From: Actinomycetes bacterium | GTDB lineage: Bacteria > Actinomycetota > Acidimicrobiia > Acidimicrobiales > SZUA-35 | Assembly: GCA_024280015.1 (NCBI GenBank) | Contig: JAJRQY010000124.1 | Location: 1-62,231, forward strand | Length of the DNA: 62,231 bases | Reading direction: 5' to 3' | Shown: positions 24,117 to 27,058 of the stretch, one piece after another | Numbering within the stretch: the first letter of the stretch is position 1 | Layout of the letters: each line of letters starts with the position of its first letter | The notes under the pieces: generated by a model | Databases searched by the model: none | Seen by the model: the letters and a program-made list of their open reading frames with translations, nothing else | What the model was told of the DNA's origin: nothing | Translations under genes and position numbers: made by a program

Positions 24117-25127
24117 CTATGCAGGGCTGGCCCGAAACGAATCTCGGTACTGGCTGGGTGAGACCCCAACTTGTCGATGGAAGTGGGTCCGGAAATTGGC
24201 TGGGCTCCCTAGCCCTGCCTGCTGAGCAACCATGGGAATTGGAAGTGACGTGGCCTCCAAGAGCTCCTTGGCCCGGTCCACCCGCTGATACCGCAACCAC
24301 TTCATCGGACTCATACCGGTCAGCGCATCGAATTGACGGATAAAGGTTCGCTCGCTGGTGTTGGACCGGCCGGCCAAGTCGGCGATGCGGATGGTCTCCT
24401 CAAGATGATCAGTCGCCCACTGCATGGCGAGGCCAATCGGGTCGCGACCGGCTGGAGTCAATGCCGCGCTGGTCGAGAATTGGGTCTGGCCTCCCTGACG
24501 ATGAGGAGCGAGAACCAAACGTCGTGCTAGGGCGGCGGCTGCGGCCGAGCCGTGATCCTTGGCGACCAGATGGAGAGACAGATCGATGGAGGCTGACGAA
24601 CCAGCCGAAGTCAGGATGTCACCGTCGTCCACGTACAAGAGGTCAGGCTTGACCTGGATCGAGGGATACCAGTCTTGTAGGAGCTCAGCATGAAGCCAGT
24701 GGGTCGTGGCTGGTCGGTTCTCAAGGAGACCGGCCGACGCGAGCACAAACGCACCGGTACACATGGAGACAATCCTGCTCCCTTTGTTGCTGGCGGCTTG
24801 CAGCACCTCGATGAGAGCAGGGTCATAGGTACGACTCCGGTCAAGCCAGGCAGGAACAATAACGGTGTCGGCGCCAACGGCGTGGTCCAGCGGGTGGTTG
24901 ACCAGGAGCTGCATACCTCCAGCCAACTTGATCGGCTTGTCGGTCGGTCCACAGACTTCGAAGGTGTACATGTCCGATCTAGCTTCGGCTCGACGGTCAC
25001 CAAAGATCTGGGCAACGACAGCCAGCTCGAACCCGTTGACGCCGTCTGCCACCAGAACTGAGACACGGTGGGGTTGCTCTCGGTCAAGGATGTGACCGGA
25101 AGCTAGAGGAGAGAAGGAACCGATCAT
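24117..25127 (-). CDS. GlxA-type transcriptional regulator (DJ-1/PfpI domain plus AraC helix-turn-helix)
   Basis: About 336 residues. Residues 20-190 form a DJ-1/PfpI-like amidotransferase fold with the nucleophile-elbow sequence SMCTGAFVLASAG. Residues about 225-325 contain the two AraC helix-turn-helix motifs (IRIADLAGRSNTSERTFIRQ and IPMVAQQAGLGSPANFRTHF). Family members commonly sense small nitrogen compounds and activate catabolic genes, for example for glycine betaine (GbdR) or arginine. It diverges from the candidate selenoprotein gene, 96 bases apart, and may regulate it. That link is inference. Confidence 0.88.
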   Translation of the reverse strand: MIGSFSPLASGHILDREQPHRVSVLVADGVNGFELAVVAQIFGDRRAEARSDMYTFEVCGPTDKPIKLAGGMQLLVNHPLDHAVGADTVIVPAWLDRSRTYDPALIEVLQAASNKGSRIVSMCTGAFVLASAGLLENRPATTHWLHAELLQDWYPSIQVKPDLLYVDDGDILTSAGSSASIDLSLHLVAKDHGSAAAAALARRLVLAPHRQGGQTQFSTSAALTPAGRDPIGLAMQWATDHLEETIRIADLAGRSNTSERTFIRQFDALTGMSPMKWLRYQRVDRAKELLEATSLPIPMVAQQAGLGSPANFRTHFHRQVGVSPSQYRDSFRASPA

Positions 25128-25223: not shown

Positions 25224-26234
25224 ATGACCAGTCAAGACTCAAAGGCATCACCTGACGATGCTTCAACCGAAACCATCAAGCAGCTTCGGGACTCATTCTT
25301 CTACGGGTCACGGAGCAATCTGAACTTCAAGTTTGTGTCAAATCTGACTGATGGAGAGTTCGGCGAATTCCTGGCCGAACTCTTTGAGGCCCTAGAAAGC
25401 GCGGTCAATGACGGCGATCCGGCAACGGTGGTTGAGACCATCAACTTCTGGCAGGTCGAAGCCCACGCAGGCAAGCACGTTGGAGAGAGTACATTTCAGT
25501 ATCAATACGACGACATTCCCATCGCTCAGCTCAGCAAGCCTCTGTCAGAGTGTCGGGTTGTGCTCCTGACCTCCAGCGGCCATTTTGTCGAGGGAGCTGA
25601 CCCTGAACCCTTTGGTGTGGTCGACATGACCCAGCACCAGGCCGAAGCTCGAATCATGGAGTTCTTGAAGGAGACACCGACCCTGTCCTCCATTCCCATG
25701 GACACACCAGCTGACCAAGTCCGGCTCCGCCACCCCGGTTACCCAACCAAAGCGGCCCTTTCTGATCATCGAGTCAACCTCCCACTGGAACACCTGCAAG
25801 CATTGGTGGGAGACGGAACCATCGCAAGTGTGCTTCCAAACGCCTACTCATTTGTCGGGGCCGCTTCACAGCTGAAGTTGAAGAAGAATATCGCTCCGGT
25901 GTGGGCCGATCGCTTGCGCGACGAGGGCGCCGACCTCGCCTTGTTGGTGCCCGTCTGACCGGTTTGCCACGTGTCAGTTGGACACGTTCAGCGAGCAATC
26001 GAGACGGCCGGCATCCCTACCGTTGGCATCTATGTGCAGAGCTTCGCTCATGTGCCACGCCTCATGGGAGTAGCCCGAACCCTCATCACCCAGCATCCAA
26101 TGGGACGACCCCTGGGTGCGCCCGGTGATGGTGAGCGTCAAGCCGCAGTGGTACGAGCAGCACTCGAACTGGCCACCGCAACCACACCAACCAGCGAGGT
26201 CTTCCCTCACGCCTACCGAACAGTCAACCACTAG
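25224..26234 (+). CDS. Candidate selenoprotein: GrdB/PrdB-like (glycine/betaine/proline reductase selenoprotein B family)
   Basis: Read conventionally the gene stops at TGA 25956-25958 after 244 residues. The same frame then runs on without a break to TAG 26232-26234, giving 336 residues with the UGA at position 245. The junction reads LLVPV-UGA-PVCH and continues VSVGHVQRAIETAGIPTVGIYV, which is the conserved C-terminal half of this family. Family knowledge: GrdB and PrdB carry selenocysteine, and relatives in aerobes often have Cys in a C-x-x-C pair. Here a U-x-x-C redox pair would result. The N-terminal part (FFYGSRSNLNFKFVSNLTD, INFWQVEAHAGK) and TSSGHFVEGADPEPFG are also family-like. An AAAGGA ribosome site precedes the ATG. 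A hairpin fitting bacterial SECIS rules follows the UGA. The reaction is unknown. If the genome lacks selA/selB/selC/selD, this is a nonsense mutant instead. Confidence 0.75.
25969..25987 (+). promoter_or_regulatory. SECIS-like hairpin just downstream of the in-frame UGA
   Basis: ACGTGTC (25969-25975) and GACACGT (25981-25987) form a perfect 7-bp stem with an AGTTG loop. The loop begins 17 bases after the UGA and has a G among its first two bases. Both features agree with the published general bacterial SECIS description: apical loop 16-37 bases from the UGA and a G in the first two loop positions. It is inside coding sequence (codons for V-S-V-G-H-V), so chance symmetry is possible. Confidence 0.5.
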
Positions 26235-26266: not shown

Positions 26267-26896
26267 TCAGTTAGCGCGATCTCGCACCTCGGCCAGCACA
26301 ACCGGATCGTCTTGCCCATTCCAGGTTGCGGTAAGTCCGATAACTGGGCGAGGTGCCGCTTCGAGGTTCCGGAACACGGTCATCTCAAAACGATCGTTTC
26401 CAAGCACGACATTGCTGCCGCTGTCTTGTTCGACAACGAACTGGTCAACGGGTACTCGTTCCTGAGTCCAGCCACCACCCAAGATCCGAATATTGCTCGG
26501 GGCGATGCACCAGCGACCATCCTTGTTAACCATGCCAAGCGCCTCACCCTGGCCGGTCATGGCAACAGCGGCGAGCATTACCACCAGTCGAGGGTCACCG
26601 AGACCGTCATACACCCAGCGAGTGCCGAGTACTGAGTGCTCTGTCGTTCCGATCAATGCGTCTTCGGCGCCATCGAGGGGTTCATCCCGATACGTGAGCG
26701 GCACATGGATCTGCGTGTCTCCGGCCTGAGCTAGGTGAACTTCCATCCCAACACGACCCTCAGGGTCATCGAAGCGATAGGCGCCAATCATTTCGATGGC
26801 AGACTCATCAGCCGCACACCATGGCTGGGTTGAGGCCCACCCGGCAACGATTTCGGCCTTGGATGGGGTAGTTGTTGCCACGTGGTAAAGAGCCAT
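26267..26896 (-). CDS. Maltokinase N-terminal cap-like domain protein
   Basis: About 209 residues from the ATG at 26896. The frame is open to 27022, but the family N-terminus appears at ALYHVATTTPSKAEIVAGWASTQPW, matching the cap domain seen at the front of mycobacterial maltokinases and as a stand-alone protein (CG50-like) in actinobacteria. MEVHLAQAGDTQIHVPLTYR is also characteristic. No kinase domain is attached. Such stand-alone domains have no established activity. It ends 32 bases from the convergent selenoprotein-like gene. Confidence 0.6.
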   Translation of the reverse strand: MALYHVATTTPSKAEIVAGWASTQPWCAADESAIEMIGAYRFDDPEGRVGMEVHLAQAGDTQIHVPLTYRDEPLDGAEDALIGTTEHSVLGTRWVYDGLGDPRLVVMLAAVAMTGQGEALGMVNKDGRWCIAPSNIRILGGGWTQERVPVDQFVVEQDSGSNVVLGNDRFEMTVFRNLEAAPRPVIGLTATWNGQDDPVVLAEVRDRAN

Positions 26897-27058
26897 GGTC
26901 AGCCAGCGTAGGCATCCGGCGTCGAGCAGGCCACCCCAGGACCAAAAGGCCCTCCGCTGGAGGTCTGGCTTGGTGGCGATACGAAGACGGTTCCCATCGG
27001 GATCGACGAGGTTGATAGTCATCGCAGGACCTCACTCGACGGTACTAGATGGCCCTTA

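Follow-up and report, generated by a model that had tools for sequence, protein, structure and literature searches.

A gene in the window, the 62,231-nucleotide stretch of an acidimicrobial contig analysed here, very probably encodes a PrdB-like selenoprotein in which the UGA at position 25956 specifies selenocysteine (Sec) within a redox centre, and which probably works without a pyruvoyl subunit. We infer Sec insertion from a complete decoding pathway, the conservation of the codon among relatives and the covariation of the hairpin that follows it. The initial annotation, made from the letters of the DNA alone, had already proposed the use of Sec, and the machinery, the TGA/Cys column and the covarying hairpin all agree with that proposal. 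Open reading frame calling under the standard bacterial code ends the product at residue 244, and the active site is lost. The family is named for enzymes of anaerobic fermentation, yet the one genome searched for its partner family gave no match. The features of the locus are listed in Table 1.

Table 1. Predicted features of the selenoprotein locus and its immediate neighbours in the window.
Feature	Position	Strand	Description
DJ-1/PfpI + AraC-type regulator, divergent neighbour	24117..25127	-	PF01965, PF12833, PF00165
PrdB-like selenoprotein gene	25224..26234	+	336 residues, Sec at 245; open except one TGA
N-terminal helical region	25224..25490	+	about residues 1-89; alignment A3
UGA codon read as selenocysteine (predicted)	25956..25958	+	UPVC motif, residues 245-248; conserved column
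SECIS-like hairpin	25969..25987	+	ACGTGTC-AGTTG-GACACGT; 7-bp stem, 5-base loop AGTTG
Next downstream gene	26267-27022	-	Pfam match only to maltokinase N-terminal cap domain PF18085

Reading frame and conservation of the UGA codon

A single frame runs from the ATG at 25224 to the TAG at 26234, with the TGA at 25956-25958 as its sole interruption; on re-reading, the frame, the position of the TGA and the flanking residues all matched the sequence as they had been described. Frames of this type are common in the window, where 34 in-frame TGAs, including TGA 25956, are preceded by at least 100 open codons and followed by at least 60. Three of these 34, TGA 25956 among them, have a comparable hairpin on their 3' side, and a hairpin of the same type follows 84 of the 2277 TGA triplets in the window (3.7%). 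Since the frame type and the hairpin type are each common, a comparison across genomes was needed to decide, and it is conservation across genomes that raises TGA 25956 above chance.

The alignment of homologues that had been recommended at the outset gave TGA or Cys at this column in all 49 genes. TGA is present in 43/43 interrupted genes (the query and 42 relatives) and Cys in 6/6 of the stop-free relatives aligned. A first extraction of 39 genes comprised the query, two paralogues from its own genome, high-scoring relatives, one named metagenome-assembled genome (MAG) and six stop-free genes among the matches listed; TGA was found in 33/33 interrupted and Cys in 6/6 uninterrupted genes, and none of the 33 interrupted genes has a second stop within the extracted frame. 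To these the 49-gene count adds ten interrupted genes of seven genomes in which selA was not matched; TGA is found in 10/10 of them and U-x-x-C in 9/10. The most distant of these ten (L085, G187:C403; 25% identical) has TGA at the Sec column, then UGTG, and thus has no U-x-x-C pair. The in-frame TGA of the annotated prdB of Peptoclostridium acidaminophilum also aligns with UGA 25956. Five homologues of 57-60% identity carry one TGA apiece, as do the two paralogues in the host genome, L002 (G000:C172) and L003 (G000:C3).

Compared with each of the other six sequences of the clade described below, the protein is 57-72% identical after the UGA vs 43-55% before it, and the third codon position is the most divergent, which together argue for selection at the protein level on the part past the UGA. 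Of the 397 genomes sampled from this order, 150 have a match at E <= 0.001; among the matches listed, nearly all carry exactly one TGA and at least six are stop-free. Proteins of this type, mostly with one TGA among those listed, are therefore common in the order sampled. Plasmid records gave 24 distant matches, and a contig scan with six peptide patterns taken from one protein gave one relative, a copy in an Acidimicrobiia MAG (L052, 49% identical), with which the acidimicrobial lineage guessed from the letters alone is in keeping.

The hairpin 3' of the UGA

The two strands of the stem occupy 25969-25975 and 25981-25987. Its spacing had been correctly described, the hairpin starting 10 bases and the loop 17 bases after the UGA, with a G as the second loop base. 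The 61 bases from 25950 to 26010 have a folding energy of -27.1 kcal/mol (z -3.3), which none of 200 shuffles equalled. A bacterial SECIS search had been advised, and a pattern scan with pair counts, standing in for a dedicated program, showed that the hairpin covaries across the 33 UGA genes of the 39-gene set, from which the six Cys genes were also drawn for the stem counts.

In the UGA genes, standard pairs fill 90.9% of the stem cells, and at most 44% of cells are paired when the register of the stem is slid. Double-change cells number 29 vs 11.8 in shuffled alignments, and the covariation score is 0.351 vs 0.130. Among the same 33 genes, neither the number of pairs changed on both sides nor that of pair types exceeded what chance gives: 351 and 283 of the 500 shuffles, respectively, reached values as high. 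Stem pairs 15-31 and 19-27 are broken in 11/33 and 10/33 genes, and the six Cys genes still have 76% of their stem cells paired, a value not above shuffles. The two weak pairs and the paired Cys forms indicate that codon constraint or descent explains part of the signal; the hairpin region is also protein-coding.

Selenocysteine machinery in the host genome and in its order

A search for the Sec machinery had likewise been called for, and every component sought was found above its curated cut-off in the host genome (G000), a draft of 4.8 Mb in 175 contigs that is 96.6% complete. A tRNA-Sec with anticodon tca (UCA) scores 66.4 bits (Rfam cut-off 47), selA 419.3 bits (cut-off 267.9) on contig C15, the adjoining selB 271.1 bits (cut-off 242.25) and selD 375.5 bits (cut-off 125). 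Within the selD gene (L062, G000:C58, 4240-5163) lies another in-frame TGA (context GAG-U-GCK), which probably makes SelD itself a Sec-containing protein.

Among the 397 genomes, 141 have both a relative and selA, 9 a relative only, 101 selA only and 146 neither (Fisher p 2e-29, a value that overstates the association because the genomes are related to one another). These counts drop five selA matches with E values of 1.8e-4 to 8.8e-4 and keep weaker partial ones to E 1e-8. Of the 9/150 relative-bearing genomes without a selA match, four (G063, G299, G327, G376) have a tRNA-Sec over the cut-off, and in G173 the relative is a Cys form. In G001, G170, G187 and G311 the best tRNA-Sec scores are 41.6-46.3 bits vs the cut-off of 47; these genomes are 74-85% complete, and their selA and tRNA-Sec gaps are explained only by this incompleteness.

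The same data bear on readings in which the UGA does not encode Sec. A pseudogene, in which the TGA really terminates translation, or a base-calling error at this site would fit the abundance of long-frame TGAs in the window (34), but we regard either as very improbable: all 43 interrupted genes, from many genomes, keep the TGA column, the 33 checked have no second stop in the extracted frame, and within the clade the residues past the UGA are better conserved than those before it. It is hardly credible that a reassigned code or a suppressor tRNA inserts some other residue. The frame would indeed be open whatever TGA encodes; however, all six stop-free relatives have Cys, neither Trp nor Gly, at this column, the first stop past the match is itself TGA in 20/33 interrupted genes, including the paralogue L002 of the host genome, and that genome has tRNA-Sec, selA, selB and selD.

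Family assignment and the partner subunit

On profile scores, the protein is a member of Pfam GRDB that is distinct from PrdB and GrdB proper. It reaches 26.8 bits against Pfam GRDB (PF07355; gathering cut-off 22) over residues 94-241. The PrdB model TIGR04483 gives 97.2 bits vs a cut-off of 300 (9.5e-28 over residues 102-329), and GrdB-type NCBIfam models give 28-40 bits vs cut-offs of 65-800. The cut-offs of TIGR01917 (28.2 bits vs 602.2) and TIGR01918 (32.1 bits vs 65.45) were both missed, as was that of the UGSC family NF041046 (15.1 bits vs 125, residues 243-279 only). The placement in a "GrdB/PrdB family" made from the letters thus stands as far as Pfam GRDB is concerned and falls short of either named enzyme, the PrdB and GrdB cut-offs being missed and PF09338 having no match.

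PF09338, the pyruvoyl partner family, is the glycine-reductase pro-protein family and also matches the annotated prdA of the control record. It had no match in the 96.6% complete draft of the host genome in 175 contigs, and the same search gave three matches in the control, the Terrisporobacter prd plasmid NZ_CP117524.1; because the genome is a draft, a partner gene may have been missed. GrdA (PF04723) had no match in the host genome, nor in any positive control. A true D-proline reductase (PrdA/PrdB) or glycine reductase, in an amino-acid fermenter, is therefore improbable. Such an enzyme would account for the TIGR04483 match and for the Sec column held in common with annotated PrdB, but both the PrdB and the GrdB-type scores lie below their cut-offs, PF09338 is unmatched where its control is positive, and GrdA is unmatched as well, though in a search without a working positive control. 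For a plasmid of P. acidaminophilum (EAL2_808p), the PLSDB gene table, which is incomplete, lists no prdA within 6 kb of prdB (L089, 5998-6711); PrdB genes away from prdA may thus occur in clostridia too.

A clade with its own N-terminal region

In a tree of 39 sequences, the query groups with L023-L027 and L052 in a clade of seven with support 100/100. Cys forms appear at two places in the tree, and the paralogue L003 branches with four of them; the long branch of L049, which meets a pair of Cys forms, calls for caution. Among the aligned relatives, the N-terminal helical region is restricted to the clade and was found in the query, L023-L026 and L052, L027 being cut there by a contig end. 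Further traits set the clade apart from the other aligned relatives: a longer insert, two extra residues past the motif, and the absence of a C-terminal tail with CxxC, which is found in many of the others. Alignment A3 holds 36 of the 39 sequences, L030, L033 and L042 being omitted for their long upstream frames. Protein N-termini are those of the longest open frames, and the first residue listed for L052 does not correspond to a start codon.

A structure model was built from alignment A4, which comprises 34 sequences and additionally leaves out L025 (ambiguous base) and L067. Its mean pLDDT is 83.5, and residue 245 lies between a strand (238-242) and a helix (246-261), a placement of the U-x-x-C that we take to resemble thiol-redox centres. 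The modelled helices of the N-terminal region fall within residues 10-82, with mixed confidence that is low at residues 1-9 and 27-33. Searches by sequence (protein or profile) found no relative of solved structure at E <= 1, and Foldseek against the PDB gave no match at E <= 0.001. The best VIA-align Z was 8.6 over 156 residues at 4.2 A, and the fold searches returned common alpha/beta arrangements only.

It is an even call whether these proteins form a distinct, free-standing clade of PrdB-like selenoenzymes in this actinobacterial order, one from which the pyruvoyl subunit was lost or always absent, which gained an N-terminal domain of its own and whose members reduce neither D-proline nor glycine but another substrate.

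Gene neighbourhood

The divergent DJ-1/AraC-type regulator may control the selenoprotein gene; in the flanks compared it has one homologue only, a 34%-identical protein of L053 encoded some 2.3 kb away from the PrdB-like gene there. Comparison of the flanks of the clade members and of the two paralogues of the host genome revealed no conserved gene context: the matches were of 25-34% identity and to common families, and beyond them only genes common to two close f17 genomes were found. For most other relatives, the flanks cover 1.5 kb only. The context therefore gives no function, the flank matches being limited to common families outside the f17 genomes. In the window itself, an Rfam scan gave no match at gathering score and ARAGORN found no tRNA.

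In two f17 genomes (L055, 2053-6782; L056, 7086-13103), a second, divergent PrdB-like gene with a TGA is found a few kb away from the clade gene, and the interval contains genes for a PLP-dependent enzyme and for a member of the ornithine cyclodeaminase family. In Roseomonas haemaphysalidis (L090, 8926-11311), a Cys form has a SelO adenylyltransferase gene as its tail-to-tail neighbour and is transcribed divergently from potassium transporter genes. A presumed TrkA-like gene also adjoins the L052 copy in the Acidimicrobiia MAG.

Proposed mechanism

During translation, the ribosome would read UGA 25956 as Sec, SelB bringing tRNA-Sec(UCA) to the following hairpin. The product would be a PrdB-like alpha/beta protein whose U-x-x-C pair, made up of Sec and Cys, opens a helix that follows a beta strand. 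To judge from the family, this pair most likely acts as a selenol/thiol redox or nucleophilic reductase centre and would be reset by a cellular dithiol. The protein probably acts without a pyruvoyl subunit. D-proline and glycine reductases need such a subunit, so that the substrate is probably neither D-proline nor glycine, and the N-terminal helical region of the clade probably serves a substrate or partner of its own.

Comparison with known systems

A survey of the Sargasso Sea in 2005 reported 42 PrdB selenoprotein genes with a UxxC motif (PMC1088965), and the GOS data of 2008 contained 235 PrdB with Sec and 110 Cys homologues (PMC2398784). The family also figures in later reviews (PMC13188914; PMC9312934), and PMC1794560 counts proline reductase among its 25 families. 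The protein described here shares with these marine metagenome proteins the PrdB family (entered as pfam07355 in the table of the GOS survey), the UxxC motif and the existence of both Sec and Cys forms; in the available portions of those reports, no lineage is named for the marine proteins. A term search of three articles (PMC13188914; PMC12013277; PMC5029168) brought up no reference to PrdB in Acidimicrobiia, and the term "PrdB-like" selenoprotein had no match in the openly licensed PMC literature, although the lineage may still be described elsewhere. Since UxxC PrdB-type selenoproteins were reported in 2005 and 2008, the gene is less new than first supposed; the part worth following is the clade that apparently lacks the partner subunit.

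With GrdB, GrdF and GrdH, the protein has in common a score against Pfam GRDB above the gathering threshold, whereas it remains far under the respective NCBIfam cut-offs. Its motif reads UPVCHVS, compared with UxxCxxC for GrdB in one review (PMC13188914). The likeness to the PrdB of D-proline reductase is closer in that the Sec column is the same, U-x-x-C-H is kept and homology extends over residues 102-329. In contrast to that PrdB, however, the protein scores below the TIGR04483 cut-off, is encoded in a genome without a PF09338 match, and carries additional sequence in three places: at the N-terminus, in an insert and as two residues past the motif.
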